In this document: piece after piece, positions 14,466 to 24,412 of the stretch
How positions within the stretch are numbered: the stretch's first letter is position 1
Layout: the number at the start of each line of letters is the position of its first letter
Source of the DNA: Hesseltinella vesiculosa
Lineage: Eukaryota; Mucoromycota; Mucoromycetes; Mucorales; Cunninghamellaceae
Length of the DNA: 64,000 nucleotides
Assembly (NCBI GenBank): GCA_002104935.1
Contig: MCGT01000012.1
Span: 124,001-188,000, forward strand
Reading direction: 5' to 3'
The notes under the pieces: model-generated
What the model was told of the DNA's origin: nothing
The model's input: only the letters and a program-made list of their open reading frames with translations
Databases searched by the model: none
Position numbers and translations under genes: made by a program

Positions 14466-15905
14466 TTACGCTCTTGCCCTTGTCAGGCACCGTTCTTTGA
14501 CGAGTGTGTTCTGGATTTGATAAGCGTTTTTATGGAGCAGCTGTTTGAAAAAAAAATATGTCAGTTGGCAGTATTCTTTTCAGAAAAAGAAAGATGATTA
14601 CGAGGCAGGAAGTGCAGAGCAATTCCAGTCGGCCACCAGGTGTTTGGCGTATTTTTGCTGAAGAATCCAGCACTTTTTTACAAGTTTGGCAGGCGAGACA
14701 TTGGCGGTGCCATTTTGCAGCACGCGGGCCTGTGCATTCCTCATGGACTGAGACGATTTTCTGTAAACAACCGGGACATTGTTTGACATTGCCGAACTGT
14801 GGTAGTGTTCGCGTTGGCGTTGGCTGGCTGCTCATTGGTGAGCTGACTTTTGTATCCTTCGTGCCTGGCTGTTGCTTGGCGTCAGTGTTGATGGTGGGCA
14901 ATGATGCGGGAATGGTGGAACCAATAAGCTCACACATGGGTTTTTTCATCGACATTGGCTGCGGCACCACCATCCATTTTATATCGCTAGCCAAGTTCTT
15001 CATTTCTTCAGGGTATGCTCTTTGATAGCATGGACCACAGTGCACGCGCTGGTTCTTTTGGCCATAAATCGTAGCCGGTGTCAAGGCGCAGTCGCAGGTG
15101 GAGCATCGGAAGCACTTTTTTTTATAGGTCCGTCAGTCACGAAGTTCTCATTTTGTTTGTCCTAGCTTTTCTTCCCCGCTGACTTACCTCTGGATGAGCC
15201 ACCACCGAGTCAATGGGCAGGAATTTGTTGTCAATAAGCTTATTGCACCGATCACAGGCCCGGATGACCCCCATGGTGCTCTCAGCACACTGGACAAAAA
15301 AAAAAGATGAGGTGAGAAGCGGCGCAAGTGGGGTCAACAGGAGGGGGATTGTGAGAGTACCTCGATATGAAAGATTTGATGAAATGAATCGACGTACCAA
15401 TCTTTGAATTCAAATGGCTTCAGACAGGTGGTACACACAATGCAAGACCAGTGCATCATGTTTGGAGATCCTGGGAGATGACCCACTTTGCCCGAGAGAG
15501 GCTTTTCACACCGACCACATGCAGGCATGTTTGTCTGGGCCGATGGGGTAGACGTAGGTGTTGTGGTTGCTGACCTTGTCAATTTTTTTTCCTCTGGTAT
15601 TTTATTATCAGTCTTGATGTGGTTCTTGTCCTTGCTGCAATCAGTTAAAAAAAAAAAAAATAGCCTGTCAGCAACACACAGGCCGCTTATTTTCCTGATC
15701 CGCTTCAAGCTCACCTGGAATGCCACCGGTCGCTGTCTCGAATATCAAAAACCGAAGATGATCTGTCTACGTTGGATAAAATATCGGGTGATTACTCACT
15801 TGATTCTATGGTTGTGCCTTGATTCTTACTCTGTTGCAACAAGGCGCCGCATTTATGACATTTGTTTGACCGTCCCAATTCTCCACAAATACGACAGTAA
15901 GGCAT
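14466..15905 (-). CDS. Multi-LIM-domain protein with N-terminal zinc ribbon
   Basis: Minus-strand exons 15905..15800, 15766..15715, 15634..15361, 15289..15188, 15114..14602 and 14540..14466 give 373 aa. It begins MPYCRICGELGRSNKCHKC, a CxxC-CxxC ribbon. Three LIM modules follow: one starting CGRCEKPL (second half ends HIEC), one with CDRC, HPECFRCSTC and HCGPC, and one with CPGC, HRQCLACQTC and CTSC. LIM domains mediate protein contacts, often at actin or signalling scaffolds. The intron before 15114 ends in AAAAG with no pyrimidine tract. Retaining the last intron would give a different C-terminus. Confidence 0.82.
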
Positions 15906-16141: not shown

Positions 16142-19100
16142 CTAACAAGGGTTGAAGGCATGTAAAAGTAAAGAGGCATTGGTGAAAAAATGCTTGTCTT
16201 GTTTTCGGAGCCAAGCAGGTAGGATAAAAGGCGACAAGGCAATGCCAAGCTGGGAAGGCGGTGCAATGCTTTGCATGGGTGTCATAGCAAACACAACGAA
16301 CCAGAGGGTATCAGGGCAGATGGCATAGAGTGAAGTGTACAGCTGGCAGGTCAGGGATTGTAGATCAGGGTGCACTTGGTCAGAAAGAAGCCACTCTGAA
16401 GCGCGCGCCATGTCGGCCACCACTGGCTGCTTTGGCTGCATAAACTGGACCACCAGGATCAACGTTTCGAGCACACAGCGTTGCAGGCGATGAGGATAGG
16501 AGTAGGTGGAGTAGTTCAGGGACATTCCAGCTTGTTGTCCTTGCTGCAGGTACCGCTGGAACCGTGGCCACACGTCTTTCATAAACCGGGACTCGATAAA
16601 ATCACCCGACACCTTGGCAAAAGCTTGGATCAGCATCACGGCGTAGAAGGTTACGTACGGCACCGAATCGTCCAATCGATGTAATAAGATGGGCCATAGG
16701 TCGTTCACCAGAACGTTCAGCTTGTCGGTGCGATGCGCCAGCACACGAACACCATCCACCACGAGCTGGATCATCTTCGCTCGCAAGGCTGGAGACGGCG
16801 ACGAGAGGAAGTGGATCGCATGCGTCAGAATCGTCCATACAAGCTCTTCATTGGAAGACAGGCTCGTCGTAGGAGCGTCGTCCACACGGCCATTTGGGTC
16901 TGCTGTCGCTTCCTTGTCGCTGGTCAGATGGTCGAGTAGGTCCTCGTCTGTTTTGCCCTGGTCACGCTGGTCGAGGAAGAACTGGCCAATGTCATCGATG
17001 CTTTTGGGAGGCTGGCTTCCAGAGTCGGAGGCTGGTCGGCTATCTCGATACTGCTGAATAAATCGAAGAATGGAGGGCGACGGTTGGCTCGTGTGATCAG
17101 GTGAAGGCTTCTCGTGGGCAGGAGCCAGAAGAGGTAGAGGCGGCGCTGAGGCAGCCGCCGCACGGACGGTTTCAAACAGCACGGAGCAGAGGTCGAGGCA
17201 CAGGGTAGGGTGTTGGTGGTACCGAGTGAGAGCATCAAACACTTCATCAATCGAGTCTTGTAAATACGACAGACTGGAGGCACCGGTGACATGGATCAGA
17301 GCGGTCAGCACCAATGGCGCTTGAGGGTTGTCAAGCAGCAAGGATATCCGCCGAGACACAGCGTTGATGATGTAGTCGACGTTGGCCACAGCCAGGTCCG
17401 CTGCATTGGGCTGGCCACACAGCACAGCTACATTGTCCAAGGCCGTCAGAGCATATTCATGAATCGCCACATTCTTCGAGCCTAGGTGCGCTAGCATCGG
17501 ATATAGCAGCGTCATCAGGTGGTCTTGCAGCAAATCACCAGGGACCAGGCCGGCTGCCAGGCTGACGATCTGCAATTGCAAACACACAGTCACCACCAAA
17601 TTTTGCTCCAGATCCACAGCATGCGTTGCTGAAAGTGAGCTAGGAGCCACAATCGAGGCCAGGGCAGAAGCATCCAGCGTCGAAGAGGCCGGGGACAATG
17701 ACGTCGTCAGATCTTTGGAGGTCGTGCACGACGTTGCTGCTGTCAGGGAGTCCACCATGTCGACCAGCAGCTGATTTGTGAGTGTAGCTAGTGACTGGCG
17801 TTCACGGCTGCCGCCATCCAAGGTTTCGCTGCCGTCCACAAGGTCCATCATGGCGGTGCCGTCTCGGTTGGCCATGGTCTTGTCAGGTACCATGCCCCCG
17901 GTCAAAAGGCCATAGACAACAAGTGCTGCCTGAGGGACCACATTCTCCAACCGTGGCGCCAGCGGATCCAATAGTACATAGGACAAAAAGTGGTCAAGCC
18001 ACCGCTGCAACACTTCAGGCGAGACTGCACCAATGACTTGCAACATACGCATCGCCTGTGCCGAGGAGGCGTCCGACGCCAGGTGTTTGAATCGCAGTGT
18101 TGGAAAGCGTCGCACATGCTCAGAAATCATTTCGCCGGCCTGCGTGTTTTGACCCATCTCCAATTGTAGACCAGCAGATTGCTCATCCAGCACCTGGAGC
18201 CCATGTACATCAATTTCCAAGGCTGCCAGCCAGCCATCAGTGACACGGGACAGGATGGTGTCCAGCACAGTCGAGGAAGGCTCTTGTAGAATCTTGACAT
18301 GGCCAATGACATGTTGGCATGCATTGGCTTTTTCACCCTCATCACCCGAGATCAACCGTCGAGGCAACTGGGTCATGGCATCGTACAAGCCTTGCTTCAG
18401 GAGTGGCACAACTTGGGTCGTAAAAATGGGCTTGACACGAAGGCGGATCAGTACGTCCTGGCAGGCACCTGCCACCTGATGCATGTCGTCATCCACCGCA
18501 AGCACCAGAGTGTCCAAGCAGATCGGCAAACAGTCTGGCAGCGACAGTAGACAGTGTTCTAGAAGGGCGCCAGCTAAGTCAACAAACGCTAAGCGTACTT
18601 GCCAGTGTGCATGCAGCCTCACCTTAGCCACTTGTCGCAAAAGTCCATGTAATGCTGTTCGGGTGGTTGCAAGCCAGTCGTCATCTTCGCCCTTGAGGTC
18701 GTCTCCTTTTTCTTGCTTTTTGTTCTGATCTCGCCAGACCTCGGTCAACTCCTGCAGGGAGGCGGGCTCCTGGTCGTGATTCTCCAGGCGCTCGTCGTTC
18801 ATGACAATGCAGATCAAGTCGGCCAGGATAGTAAGCGTGTAAGCGATGACTTGGTGGTGCTCTTTCTCCTGCTTCTGCCACACAATCTTGCACAGGACAG
18901 AAGTCAGGCCAGGGAAGATGGGGGCCAGTAGCACTGGGTCATTGATGTTGTCATGCAGAAGCTGGCGCACGGTGTCCAGAGCCAGCAAACGAAGGTCCAG
19001 CAACATGTCGCGCTGTGCACAAGCCAGAAGTTCAGCCGCGCATTGAGCGAGCACCCCCTTGAATGTGTCTTCCTTAAGCACAGGTCGTAAGTGCATGGCC

Positions 19101-19609
19101 AGTTGACTTTGTAAAAATAGCGGGCTCCGAGGCGTCGTTGTCAAAGGGATCGGCAGCGTCAAACCAAGACATTGAATGGTCAGCACCTTGATATCGTCCA
19201 AAGCACCAGACGACGAGGAAGAATTATTGGTGACTTGTAAGCAAGTGGTAAACAGCATCAGACATTGCTTCAGCATGGTGGCGTCGAACGTCAGTGGCCA
19301 TATGGTCTTGGCCAGCAGGAAGAGGAAGCATCGTAAGAGGGCCTCAAAGGTTTGATCACTAGAGATGCGACTCTGGATCAGCGTCTTGAAGCAATGCAAC
19401 AAAGGAAACAATATCGTGTCGATGAGTGCCATGTCCAGCACCATCTCGGGATCGTCAATAGCCTGCAGAACTTTGTCCAGCTGATACAATGTCGCGGCTG
19501 CTCGTTTGCAGTCGTCCAACGTCATGGGCACTTTGCTGTCAAGTAATGGAACGCACGTCGCTTTCAATCGAGCATACAAGTCCTTACGTTGTTGATGTTC
19601 ATGACTCAT
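16142..19609 (-). CDS. TTI1: TELO2-interacting protein 1 (TTI1), TTT complex
   Basis: Uninterrupted ORF of 1155 aa, the longest in the window and without any intron, unlike most neighbours. It is a HEAT-repeat solenoid. TTI1-like stretches include FEALLRCFLFLLAK, LDLRLLALDTVRQLL, LPGLTSVLCKIV and a C-terminal WPILLHRLDDSVPYV followed by MKDVWPRFQRYL. With TEL2 and TTI2, TTI1 forms the TTT co-chaperone that matures PIKK kinases such as TOR, ATM and ATR. A Ser/Thr-rich low-complexity insert lies mid-protein and an acidic one nearer the C-terminus. Its promoter lies in the 334-nt gap below the Fanzor-like gene. Confidence 0.85.
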   Translation of the reverse strand: MSHEHQQRKDLYARLKATCVPLLDSKVPMTLDDCKRAAATLYQLDKVLQAIDDPEMVLDMALIDTILFPLLHCFKTLIQSRISSDQTFEALLRCFLFLLAKTIWPLTFDATMLKQCLMLFTTCLQVTNNSSSSSGALDDIKVLTIQCLGLTLPIPLTTTPRSPLFLQSQLAMHLRPVLKEDTFKGVLAQCAAELLACAQRDMLLDLRLLALDTVRQLLHDNINDPVLLAPIFPGLTSVLCKIVWQKQEKEHHQVIAYTLTILADLICIVMNDERLENHDQEPASLQELTEVWRDQNKKQEKGDDLKGEDDDWLATTRTALHGLLRQVAKVRLHAHWQVRLAFVDLAGALLEHCLLSLPDCLPICLDTLVLAVDDDMHQVAGACQDVLIRLRVKPIFTTQVVPLLKQGLYDAMTQLPRRLISGDEGEKANACQHVIGHVKILQEPSSTVLDTILSRVTDGWLAALEIDVHGLQVLDEQSAGLQLEMGQNTQAGEMISEHVRRFPTLRFKHLASDASSAQAMRMLQVIGAVSPEVLQRWLDHFLSYVLLDPLAPRLENVVPQAALVVYGLLTGGMVPDKTMANRDGTAMMDLVDGSETLDGGSRERQSLATLTNQLLVDMVDSLTAATSCTTSKDLTTSLSPASSTLDASALASIVAPSSLSATHAVDLEQNLVVTVCLQLQIVSLAAGLVPGDLLQDHLMTLLYPMLAHLGSKNVAIHEYALTALDNVAVLCGQPNAADLAVANVDYIINAVSRRISLLLDNPQAPLVLTALIHVTGASSLSYLQDSIDEVFDALTRYHQHPTLCLDLCSVLFETVRAAAASAPPLPLLAPAHEKPSPDHTSQPSPSILRFIQQYRDSRPASDSGSQPPKSIDDIGQFFLDQRDQGKTDEDLLDHLTSDKEATADPNGRVDDAPTTSLSSNEELVWTILTHAIHFLSSPSPALRAKMIQLVVDGVRVLAHRTDKLNVLVNDLWPILLHRLDDSVPYVTFYAVMLIQAFAKVSGDFIESRFMKDVWPRFQRYLQQGQQAGMSLNYSTYSYPHRLQRCVLETLILVVQFMQPKQPVVADMARASEWLLSDQVHPDLQSLTCQLYTSLYAICPDTLWFVVFAMTPMQSIAPPSQLGIALSPFILPAWLRKQDKHFFTNASLLLHAFNPC

Positions 19610-19943
19610 GTTCTTCTTTTATGTTGTGTCAAGCCAGATCAAACAAAGATGCAGCGAGTGAATGAAGTGGAAGGTGAAACAAAGAAAAAAAATTGCTGGT
19701 TGACACTACAGAAAAAAATCCAATGTTAGTAGCCAATCAGGCGCTTGAATTATTTTCATCTAAACTTCCTTTATTCATTTTCATGACAAACCTGCCAAAA
19801 AAAAAAAAAAATCAGCATTTCCTCTTCAAATTCTGCCTCAGGCTTACGAAAATAAGCTGGTTTTTTGGCCAGCGAGGTAAAGATATTCATTAGTGAGGGT
19901 CCCGAGACGAAGAAGCAACTGCTGAATTTTGTTGGTGTGGTGA
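19610..19943 (-). promoter_or_regulatory. TTI1 promoter / Fanzor-like gene 3' flank
   Basis: 334 bases downstream of the Fanzor-like stop and upstream of TTI1, both on the minus strand. It must hold the 3' end of one gene and the promoter of the next. In TnpB/Fanzor systems the guide (omega) RNA typically overlaps or follows the nuclease 3' end, so this is where one would be sought. A 15-nt A run lies at 19798-19812. I see no convincing terminal inverted repeat or hairpin by eye. Confidence 0.35.
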
Positions 19944-22900
19944 TTATTGGTCGGTGGAGGTGGGTCGTGGTGGGCAGAACAACGCTGGGCGAGGCAATCC
20001 TTGGAGGGCAGTCTTGCCAAGACGCAACATATTCCAAGCCGCAAGCTTGTCCCTGTCCCAGTTGATTTTACAGTGTTGGCACTGTAGAACCGACCACAAA
20101 GACATGCTTGCACCTCGCAGGAATGGGTCACCAACGGTCTTGTGTTCAAGGTCTTTTTCATCACACATTGGACAGACCTGTAAAAAAAATGAGATAGAAA
20201 AAAAAGGTCATTTTGCGCTTCATTTTTCCCTCTCCTCATGATTTACCTTGCTTGTGTTATATTCATTTGTTTTTGTAACAAGTAGTAACCCTTGCTTTTC
20301 CGCTATTTTGAGTGCTTTGTACACTTTTCCGGAGCGAGTGGACTTTTTCCCTCTACGGGTTTGCGCAAACAATGCACCACCATAGGCAATCACTGGAAGT
20401 TTGCAGCTATAAAAAAAGTTAGTCCAGGCATCACACCTTTTTTTGTGTAGTGCATACCTATCATAGTCTTCCTTTTGGTGTTTGTACTTGTTACCACCAT
20501 GGACGAAGTGGTTGACGACTTCTGCGCACATCTTCTTGTCCCCACAATAGTCCATGAACCGATGCAGGGTATAGTCATCAGCAAAATGTTCGGTGATATC
20601 ATCAAGGTGTTGGAATACATAGATGGTGCGCTGAATGAAGCGGTCAGTATGGCTAGTTTTTGCTGGAGGTATACGCGTGAGGATCTCCTCCATGCCAGAA
20701 TCTTTGAGCCAACGTTTTCGAATGCATGAGCGCCCATGTCGACCAGAGAGTGATAGCCATTCATTATTCGAGAATCGCATGTACCGACCATGCCAACCGT
20801 TGGTGCTGTTGCTGCTGTGTTCAGTGCCTGGGGCAGTGCGATCATTTCCCGGGAGGTGCTTGTCTTCTTGAGCAGATGTGTAAAGCTCACTATGTCCTGG
20901 ATCGACTCCATACAGCTGCATACGTTCTCGTGGTTCACCATGCAAGTCGTCCATTTCGAGATCAGGAAGTTCAATTTGGGGTGCGCGCTTGCCATAGATA
21001 AATTCCAATTGAAGCCCATCAGTGCGAACACGGTTGGAAAATACCAAGGAGGCAGGATCATCATCATCCTCTTCATCGCTACTATCGATTTCAGTCAATT
21101 GAGTATCGCTGCCAACGTCCTGGTGTGTTGTCTCGTCAGTAAAACTGCCTTGATCTGATGATCTGTCATGGTCGCCTTTGTCTTGATCACCATCGTCGAT
21201 TTCGCCCTCCGATGGGGTATTGTGAGCACCATCAGAACCGCCAGCAGGGTTGCCGATGTCATTAGCATCTCCATCAGTAACACTGCCACTATCATCTTCG
21301 GCATCACCGTTGTCAAGATCGGGATCAGCACCACCAGCGTCATCATCACTGTCGCTGTCAGGTTCAGTGAGCGTTGGATAATGCAAAAATGCGGTAGTAC
21401 TAAAAAAAAATCAGTCACGATTCCTGCCATCACAAGGTTCCTCAGTTACCATTTTCGAAGACGAGCCTTCTGAAAGTCCAGGTAGGTGAAAAAGAGAGTG
21501 GCATCGCGAGCAAGGCGGGTATAAGGATGAGTATTGACACCTGACGGCACAGTCACGTTTATACCGGCTTGCTTGAGAATTGACCGAAATGAGGAGGCAT
21601 CCAAAGTGATAAACCGGCGACGAAAGGACAGAGTCGGCACAAGGGAAAAGAGGGCTGTTGACTTGGATTGCCTCATGGTGGAGGAGGAGTAGCAAAGGTC
21701 TGCTGATATGTCAGTGCCAGCCAGTTTCGCCTTGGAGTTTGCCAACTTTACACGAAGGCCAAGGACGAGATCTGACAGCCAGGTCTTAAATTCTTCTGGT
21801 AGACTCCAGGGGATGTCAATTGGATTGTCCGGGTGCTCCAGCAATTGCATCATGCCCTTGAATACTCTTTGGCGACAGCGACGAGGCAGCACATGATAGT
21901 CCATGTTAGATGATAGTAAGAGCTTCATGGTGATTGTGTCCATTTGATCATGCACATCGTCATGCCCCATCTCAGATGGTTCCAGGTCGTTGCCTTGTTC
22001 CATTTCTTGCAATAGTCGGTAAAGTACTTGCAAATATGTTCCGGGGCTTGCAGTAAGTTCCTTCAGCGTAACTGGACTTGGACCAAAGTTCAGGGTTGAG
22101 ATAAATGTTGAGACGATCGTTCGCAAGAGATCAGGGCTATTTTCTGACAGTTGCTCAACGTTTTCTTGACGGGTGACAGTGTCGTAAATATTCTGGCATG
22201 CGTTCATAATATAACCGGACTTTGGCATTTCCTATGTCAAAAAAAAGTGAGCAACTCGCGCCTTCTTATTTTCTCTCTCTTTCTTACTGACCTGGCCTTC
22301 AGACAGCTGATCCTTGAGGGTGTTGACCAAGCGAAAGCGAATATACTTGATACACTTTTCTTCAAAACGTTCAGTCACAGCCAAGAGATTGATTTGGGCT
22401 AACTCATCCGCCATTTCAGAAATCATGTTACTAGCACCCTTGATCCAATATAGTTCGAAGCGGCAGTCACCCAAGAGAGACTGGTAATGGTGATACATTG
22501 CTGTAGGATCAGGTATGTTCGAGTTGGGGGAGGTCACAGCCTTGCCAGTCACCAGTTGGCAGATCCCATAGAAAAAATCTTTACAGAATACAGTATCGTT
22601 GACCACAGAACCCTCAGACATGACATGCAGAACATAATAGTTGAAGAACGACTGGGCGCAGATGGAGACATAGCGGATGTGATCGACCCATAGGAGGATG
22701 GTTTCTTGGACGTCCATCTTTGCTTGGCATTGGTCTTGGATATTGTTTTAGGCCATGTTAAGAGCATGACAAAGAGATATCTTGCGAACACGGGTTTTGA
22801 AATTGGTACCAAGCAAGAGAGACTGGAGATCCTTCAACTTGAATTTCTTGGCCCTTTTTTTCCCATCAGGGTTCTTCTGCTTTTCCTTGCGGGCCATGGA

Positions 22901-23241
22901 GCCAGCCTTACGTAGAAGCTTGCTGGCCCTTTTGAGCTGGGTTTTGGACTTTCGTTTGCCACCTTTAAAAGTAAATGTTAGAAACTGGCAATGTAGGGGC
23001 GCTCAATACTAACGGTTGAAAGGACAATCTGCTCGCTTGTGCCCTAATCCATGGCACAAAGTACACTTTAAACCTAATGGAAGAGAATGAGATCATGAAG
23101 CAACGCGTTTTAAAAAATAAACAAACAAGGTCAATAATAGGATTTACCTTTGAGAATGTAATATTTCCTCATTTTCAAGTTATACAGCCAAGTCTTATTT
23201 GCATCTATTCGTAATTGCCTTCTTCTTATATGACGCCCCAT
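19944..23241 (-). CDS. Fanzor-like (TnpB-family) putative RNA-guided nuclease, possibly interrupted
   Basis: Minus-strand exons 23241..23148, 23073..23014, 22962..22292, 22231..21450, 21399..20247 and 20177..19944 join in frame (997 codons plus stop). Start to end: a CCHC zinc knuckle (CTLCHGLGHKRADC, residues ~35-48), a Lys-rich segment, a helical middle region, a long acidic Asp/Ser linker (~548-650), then the nuclease core. That core has QLYGVDPGHSELYT (RuvC-I, Asp702), PVIAYGGALFAQ, TNEYNTSK with Glu915, a CPMC/CQHC zinc ribbon (Cys922, 925, 953, 956), and NWDRDKLAAWNML (RuvC-III, Asp963). These match TnpB and the eukaryotic Fanzor proteins. One in-frame TAA lies at 22748..22750 (codon 123) unless a 75-nt intron (22735..22809) is spliced. 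Two further calls are uncertain: exact start, and a 51-nt optional intron at 20407..20457. Confidence 0.82.
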
Positions 23242-23358
23242 TTTAAATGTAAATAAATGCTGAAGCAAGGTTGTAAAAAAAAAGTAAAGAAAAAGAACTC
23301 TTTGAACGCGCAGCACCCTTTTCAATAAACCCCGCTCGTTGTTTTTCTTGCCTCTGGC

Positions 23359-23392
<34 letters not shown>

Positions 23393-24412
23393 GCAAAGTC
23401 TGTAGGAAGGATTTGTTTATTTACTACCTTTTCAACCTTCAAGAATACAAGGAATAAGTGGGGCATGATACTTCCAGATCACGAGATGAAAAGTCAAACG
23501 ACGAATATCCAGTTTAGTAACTTGAACAGGTTTGAAGTGAAAAGTATTCATTTTTGTATTGATGATAAATATAACCCATTGAATGCGAACTTAAATGGAA
23601 AAGTACATGCAGCAACTGCTAATCTTCATGGTATTTTTGTACCTCGTTTCGTTGGTTTAATCGCGCTTCCCTACTTTAGTATTATCAATATTAAAGCGTT
23701 TTTAATTGGCTCACCATTTCGCATTTCCCGTGGTGGAGAAAAAAAAAAAAACTGTCCGCTTGAGCAGAATTGTCCAATCAGCTGACCCGTGGCCCTGCGC
23801 TCCGCCTAGGCAATTCTCAGCCTGTCATCGCTGTTCGTTTGTTCTTTTTTTTTTTGCATTTCTAATGACATCTGTTTTGTTTGAATAACGTGTATTGATC
23901 GGAGAGAATGAGTCATTGACTGTCTAAAAGTTTTTCAAAGGCTACAGGTTTTCTTGCCAGGTGATATTGCCGAGGAGGAACCAAGGCGGTCTAAAAACGG
24001 CGTAAGAAAACGTCATGGACGATAGCTCATTTTGGGGGCGCTTACGGGTGTGGTCAATTGCACTGTGTTCTGTACGTGTTCTGCATCTGTAACAAGTTAA
24101 ACGTGAGTGCAATCATAGACAGAAGGCTTTCAGGTCGTACCCAAGTGATGCATGTGCTGGCAGTGAAAATTAAATACAGGCTGAGATCGGATGGCAGCAG
24201 CCTTGACGGCTTTTTTTTATATATACCTTGAAACCAAATGGCTGGCTGATGCTGCTCTTTTGAAATTTAGGAGAGGAAGAAATGTTGCCCATTTTTTTTA
24301 CAGGAAGGACAAAGAAAATGGGTTGCAAGCAGATGGAGGAAGAAAAAAGGTACAGGGTGAAAAAAAAAAAAAGCTCCGAGCGATGGCCATTTTCGGCACA
24401 ACTTCAGTGTGT
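23242..24412. other. Spacer upstream of the Fanzor-like gene, with CT microsatellite
   Basis: 1171 bases between the Fanzor-like start and the 3' end of the TRIC gene. A (CT)n microsatellite of about 31 nt sits at 23360-23390. An AT-rich open frame spans 23339-23785, but it begins with translated microsatellite and has no recognisable domain. The left part presumably contains the Fanzor-like promoter. No inverted repeat matching the other side of that gene was found by eye. Confidence 0.5.
23360..23390. repeat. CT dinucleotide microsatellite
   Basis: An uninterrupted run of CT units about 120 bases upstream of the Fanzor-like start codon. Confidence 0.9.

Follow-up and report, generated by a model that had tools for sequence, protein, structure and literature searches.

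Evidence for a stop-interrupted copy of a multi-copy mobile element encoding a Fanzor1 protein in the fungus Hesseltinella vesiculosa

Eukaryotes carry relatives of TnpB and Cas12 known as Fanzor proteins, of which few have been characterised. A long, multi-exon gene on the minus strand of a 64,000-nucleotide stretch of Hesseltinella vesiculosa DNA (hereafter the window) raises the question of whether this locus carries such a protein, and in what state. A sequence-only reading had proposed that it 'is or was a Fanzor element', and this is borne out by a profile match to SpuFz1, by a match to Pfam family PF07282, by published motif features and by the additional copies described below. The evidence supports the view that the locus is one stop-interrupted copy of a multi-copy mobile element encoding Fanzor1, such that 'was' fits the window copy, with its premature stops, and 'is' fits the family. 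Fanzor1 is a known kind of protein, a eukaryotic RNA-guided DNA nuclease related to CRISPR-Cas12. The window family is a large, abundant new Fanzor1 family and no new kind of system.

Our gene model was derived by comparing 17 copies from the window's own genome, and it comprises seven probable exons and six introns (Table 1). The gene span recognised from sequence alone, which ran from the ATG at 23241 to a stop ending at 19944, is retained with respect to strand and start, but the terminal stop proved to be private to the window copy. Likewise, the multi-exon organisation holds, but the six exons originally counted are probably seven. Residue Asp702 was numbered correctly, whereas Glu915 and Asp963 are 17 too high if intron 5 is spliced and become Glu898 and Asp946; this offset therefore indicates that the 51-nt stretch from 20457 to 20407 had been kept as coding. 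On DNA evidence intron 5 is probable rather than proven, given that all 16 copies that have it keep an in-frame stretch of 51 nt. Its ends are GT/AG in 14 of these copies and GC/AG in two (L020 and L022; L numbers denote individual loci), and GC replaces GT also in intron 4 of L022. Splice dinucleotides are otherwise kept across copies, introns 1 to 4 and 6 vary in length, and one copy (L025) is without introns 4 and 5.

Table 1. Coordinates of the element, its gene and the adjoining host gene in the window.
Feature	Positions	Strand	Basis or remark
Whole mobile element, ~4.03 kb, from CACGGG (gene 5′ side) to GTG (3′ side)	19704-23732	-	copy similarity ends there
Exon 1	23148-23241	-	copy comparison, GT/AG
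Exon 2, with zinc-knuckle-like motif (residues 35-48)	23014-23073	-	copy comparison; motif by eye
Exon 3, N-terminal/REC-like region (named by analogy), with first premature stop	22292-22962	-	copy comparison
In-frame TAA, codon 123	22748-22750	-	window copy only; siblings have a sense codon
Exon 4	21450-22231	-	copy comparison
Exon 5, acidic linker followed by RuvC-I Asp702 (DPG) at 20903-20901	20458-21399	-	copies, family alignment
Probable intron 5, 51 nt, in frame	20407-20457	-	GT/AG mostly; ACTAAC before acceptor (window)
Exon 6, with invariant Gly859 and alternative catalytic Glu898 at 20264-20262	20247-20406	-	family alignment, SpuFz1 profile
Exon 7 of window copy, C4 ribbon (CPMC from 905, CQHC from 936)	19944-20177	-	PF07282, PDB profile
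RuvC-III Asp946 in exon 7 (Asp963 if intron 5 is kept)	20051-20049	-	PDB profile
Terminal TAA private to window copy	19944-19946	-	15/15 siblings have a sense codon
TAA closing the frame in six of seven open siblings	19890-19892	-	sibling comparison
3′ non-coding part of element	19704-19889	-	no structural signal
TTI1 (TELO2-interacting protein 1), host open frame, ATG at 19609	16142-19618	-	outside element

The diagnostic motifs first read from the sequence, VDPGHSELYT, TNEYNTSK, CPMC...CQHC and WDRDKLAAWNM, are all present and in the order given. The glutamate singled out as the rearranged ('alternative') catalytic residue also stands, as exactly six residues separate it from the first zinc-ribbon Cys and it aligns with E541 of SpuFz1. 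A published Fanzor1 motif takes the form D-X(125,275)-[TS]-[TS]-X-X-[C4]-X(5,50)-RD (PMC3627910), and the window protein exhibits D702, 198 residues, TS-KV, CPMC/CQHC, KINWD and RD. A Fanzor1 signature has been given that combines DPG at RuvC-I with an alternative Glu placed six residues ahead of the zinc ribbon (PMC10711439); the window protein carries VDPG (with DPG in all five aligned families) and has E898, six residues and then C905. SPu-1 is described as having a conserved Gly some 36 residues ahead of the corresponding Glu (G500/E536; PMC3627910), and the window protein has G859 located 39 residues ahead of E898 and invariant in 5/5 families. A search pattern published for pro-Fanzor TnpB proteins, DPGx(120,160)E with CxxCx(12,18)CxxC (PMC10711439), does not describe the window protein, where DPG and E are separated by 193 residues and the CxxC pairs lie 27 apart.

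Near the N terminus, residues 35 to 48 can be read by eye as C-x2-C-x4-H-x4-C, which resembles a zinc knuckle, and a related family has C..C...H...CPFNR. The window family has this motif in common with a sister family, with 28% identity over 261 aligned positions. Pfam yielded no CCHC zinc knuckle above cut-off (zf-C2H2_10 scored 18.3 bits versus 26.2).

To compare the locus with proteins of known structure, we used a profile of the C-terminal RuvC and zinc-ribbon part built from one member each of five families, namely the window family and those represented by L050, L046, L048 and L045, which are other stretches of the same genome. In this alignment their identities to the window family are 38%, 36%, 25% and 27%, respectively, and the DPG Asp, the Glu that precedes the ribbon, all four ribbon Cys, the RD and the subsequent Asn are invariant in all five. 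Among PDB sequences the top match of the profile is SpuFz1 (E = 4.5e-11, 231 profile positions). The Glu and last Asp of the window family align to residues 935 and 1000 of the SpuFz1 chain, which equal E541 and D606 at a constant offset of 394, and these two residues have been named as catalytic (PMC11423790, PMC10432273). Mimivirus L79 (E 1.2e-4) and GtFz1 (E 2.3e-4) follow, and then TnpB and Cas12 relatives; PpFz1 of Parasitella reaches only E 0.088. The local alignment to SpuFz1 stops short of the RuvC-I DPG Asp, and DPG finds an aligned counterpart just in weakly matching stretches of L79 and GtFz1.

Family models agree with this assignment. The spliced C-terminal part of the window protein scores 35.8 bits against PF07282, whose cut-off is 26.3, and members of all five families match this model at E up to 1 (best 9.2e-10). 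All five also match NF040570 (guided_TnpB; best 1.6e-8), but the NCBIfam scores of the window protein fall far below the curated cut-offs (18.5 versus 100 bits). Searches with TnpB/OrfB and Fanzor profiles had been suggested as the check on the original proposal, and the outcome favours it, as evident by the PF07282 score over cut-off and the SpuFz1 match. Neither exon 5 nor exon 7 alone matches a PDB sequence significantly, and a protein database search with residues 440 to 972 of an intact sibling, a query that leaves off the last 17 residues, returned no homologue at E 0.001 among 7,990 candidates scored. A single-sequence structure model of an exon-5/6 fragment, which does not include the last Asp, has a mean pLDDT of 35.5, a value too low to be informative. 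We assign the locus to Fanzor on the basis of sequence homology to a characterised Fanzor1, the published motif features tested, and its residence in a multi-copy mobile element of a eukaryote, as evident by 17 close copies with common ends and the adjoining eukaryotic host gene TTI1.

The boundaries of the element are common to copies that lie in different flanks, and at least 17 close copies are present in the genome; 20 of the 88 match rows fall at those 17 loci, and the other 68 represent diverged relatives. No perfect terminal inverted repeats were found at the element ends, and the sequence AGCCAATYA occurs in inverted orientation near both ends, 21 and 27 nt inward from them. The 5′ non-coding part includes a run of GA dinucleotides (window 23360-23390) that is longer in L012. 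In a check for target-site duplications, left and right flanks shared more than 5 bp in register in one of the 11 copies for which both ends are recognisable (L018, 7 bp). When the flanks of 10 of the 17 copies were joined and searched as empty sites, no junction-spanning match beyond the copies themselves was found among the 40 of 108 candidates scored.

Two copies have unusual surroundings. L021 (G000:C11:77100-87000) is slightly truncated at its 5′ end and, unlike the full-ended copies, has a perfect 14-bp direct repeat, TCGTGACACAAAAA, on its two sides. This repeat resembles those of 5′-truncated Helitron2-type Fanzor elements that have been reported (PMC3627910), but we assign the element to no superfamily because L021 is a single copy. 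In the right flank of L020 (G000:C5:124625-125652), another repeat beginning GGGCTGACGGTGACAATTTT starts within 5 nt of the element. It recurs inverted about 1 kb further on and in at least 19 other places, and is probably an unrelated inverted-repeat transposon.

How might such an element operate? We consider it very probable that the locus holds one copy from a family of DNA transposons, ~4.03 kb long, in which the sole recognised gene encodes a Fanzor1 predicted to work as an RNA-guided nuclease like SpuFz1. Open copies would yield a protein of 989 to 999 amino acids, with the N-terminal zinc-knuckle-like motif, then an extended REC-like region and an acidic linker, and finally the C-terminal RuvC domain and zinc ribbon. 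This protein would bind an RNA made from the 3′ end of the element, with the guide part reaching into the right flank, and the RNA-loaded complex would recognise a short motif together with matching DNA. An empty donor site could then be cut by Asp702, Glu898 and Asp946, and repair of the cut site would restore or spread the element. This guide and cleavage mechanism is proposed because of the homology to SpuFz1 and by analogy with TnpB. Movement itself is expected to depend on a transposase supplied in trans, since no transposase was recognised in the element. None was seen by eye in the end-sharing elements L040, L042, L043 and L051 to L053.

In known systems, guide RNAs are located at the element 3′ end, and this region was therefore searched for the putative guide. 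Folding of the stretch from position 19943, which includes 54 nt that are coding in siblings, gave a z-score of -0.81 relative to shuffled sequences. Further folds of the 3′ region gave z-scores of -0.22, 0.05 and 0.14, and that of a relative gave 0.42, so none was better. None of 61 predicted pairs in the 3′ region changed on both sides. Conservation of the last 93 alignment columns does not clearly exceed that of introns and third codon positions (a fraction of 0.066 of random samples was as low), and values as low as in these columns occur in 108 of the 376 sliding windows along the element. Rfam models applied to the whole window at gathering scores gave no match. The length of Fanzor guide RNAs is described as varying considerably across species (PMC11423790).

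The condition of the copies bears on whether the nuclease matters to the element. The in-frame TAA at codon 123, which the sequence-only reading overlooked, silences the window copy. All 16 siblings have a sense codon at this position, and at the terminal TAA a sense codon is likewise present in all 15 siblings whose sequence reaches that far, L023 being truncated by its contig end. Seven of the 17 copies are open from the ATG to a downstream stop, with predicted proteins of 989 residues (L013, L015, L016 and L018), 990 (L019), 991 (L017) and 999 (L020). Six of these seven share the family stop, and L020 extends slightly further. The remaining 10 copies, including that in the window, are not open, with frame shifts, deletions and a contig end all contributing.

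It is conceivable, but in our judgement unlikely, that Fanzor1 is a decayed passenger of the transposon, with an irrelevant nuclease, copies that degrade neutrally and a dead copy in the window. The two private stops in the window copy would suit this explanation, as would the negative outcome of the guide-RNA searches and the 10 copies that are not open, although some of the latter result from deletions or a contig end. Values of dN/dS among the seven open copies (calculated up to the codon at 19944) range from 0.44 to 1.24 and are below 1 in 20 of 21 pairs; these values are high, and with the single pair above 1 they would suit neutral decay. Synonymous distances among these copies are only 0.011 to 0.039, and because the copies are young, the ratios offer weak evidence for selection on the protein. 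However, seven copies remain open, variation at third codon positions is double that at positions 1 and 2 (0.034 versus 0.017), and five diverged families all keep the same residues at the catalytic and zinc positions. These observations argue against neutral decay.

Far less credible is the idea that the host has domesticated the Fanzor gene for a cellular role at this locus. The element ends 94 nt upstream of the ATG of the conserved host gene TTI1, which has the same orientation, as might be expected for a domesticated gene, but the same element resides at 16 other loci and it is the window copy that is broken whereas others are open. An exon of a LIM-domain gene (window 14530-15132; Pfam PF00412, 1.8e-11) lies beyond TTI1. 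Similarly improbable is another RNase-H-fold transposase or integrase with a coincidental zinc knuckle and zinc ribbon, for although CCHC knuckles are typical of retroelement proteins and neither exon 5 nor exon 7 finds a significant PDB match by itself, the SpuFz1 match covers 231 positions of the profile and keeps the catalytic residues in register, the next profile matches are Fanzor, TnpB and Cas12 entries, and NCBIfam TnpB families and PF07282 are also matched.

The flanks of the copies share short pyrimidine sequences. The right flank starts with TC in all 15 copies with a recognisable right end. On the opposite side, TCTC is found no more than 10 nt ahead of the left end in all 13 copies where that end is recognisable (e.g. 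window 23733-23741), and in 11 of these it is positioned exactly at -8 to -5. By comparison, TCTC appears in 586 of 26,000 random 10-mers taken from the same left flanks (2.3%), and in none of three relatives (L040, L042 and L043) that share the left end and have no Fanzor gene in the stretch read. Two positions within the left-flank motif vary freely, and a target-site preference is therefore favoured, but the motif could instead be element sequence with lineage-specific changes. A more ambitious interpretation, which we put forward as a doubtful one with the odds clearly against it, is that the (Y)TCTC-N-C-W-C stretch preceding the left end serves the Fanzor as its target-adjacent motif, and that insertions persist only where the nuclease can recognise, cut and re-fill the empty site.

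Among known systems, SpuFz1 of Spizellomyces punctatus (PDB 8GKH and others) is among the closest counterparts, sharing in register the alternative Glu before the C4 ribbon, the RD of RuvC-III and a C-terminal RPxxF. The SPu-1 element is likewise multi-copy, with one protein described for it (PMC3627910). As given in the same source, SPu-1 measures about 2.1 kb and has a single-ORF protein of 633 amino acids, 33-bp terminal inverted repeats and TA duplications. The window family differs in its ~4.03-kb length, its 989- to 999-amino-acid protein, its probable seven exons, its knuckle-like motif and acidic linker, and the lack of a perfect terminal inverted repeat. Fanzor1 families were published in 2013 for Mucor (10), Rhizopus (4) and Phycomyces (3) (PMC3627910). 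These MCi, ROr and PBl families (M. circinelloides for Mucor), here compared by description only, are Fanzor1 elements of early-diverging fungi like the one reported here, and MCi-2 and MCi-5 are also described as being without recognisable inverted repeats (PMC3627910).

PpFz1 of Parasitella parasitica (PDB 9CF0; PMC11423790) is likewise a large fungal Fanzor1, described as having an insertion of about 100 amino acids in RuvC, but its profile match at E 0.088 does not establish close kinship. GtFz1 and mimivirus L79, which are Fanzor2 proteins, share the Glu before the zinc ribbon but are much more distant from the window family than SpuFz1 is; the L79 chain has 520 residues. Most Fanzor1 proteins are stated to have 600 to 700 residues (PMC11423790), and the protein of the open copies falls in the upper part of the known Fanzor1 size range.

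The window family has company in its genome. A genome-wide scan (27 Mb) identified 46 PF07282 matches at E ≤0.001 outside the window family's loci, 42 of them over the cut-off, some only when neighbours in frame are included. Because exons were matched singly, these numbers count zinc-ribbon exons, which may be fragments. Most of the 46 are without an internal stop, a heavy Fanzor load. One sister family includes eight copies (L050 and seven others) that are 94 to 100% alike across a 363-nt stretch of the 3′ end, and its ends were not found in the stretches read. At L051 (G000:C12:111900-117300), the remains of a different Fanzor directly precede a stretch of about 95 bp with 98% identity to the right-hand part of a short element (L040) in which no Fanzor gene was recognised, and element ends seem to be shared between elements of the L051 and L040 types.

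The role that Fanzors play for their transposons is left open in PMC10432273. This genome of only 27 Mb, in which one family has no fewer than 17 close copies, seven of which are open, alongside dozens of further Fanzor matches, lends itself to that question. If the target-adjacent interpretation of the TCTC motif were true, this motif would be an insertion-site footprint of RNA-guided homing in a eukaryotic genome.
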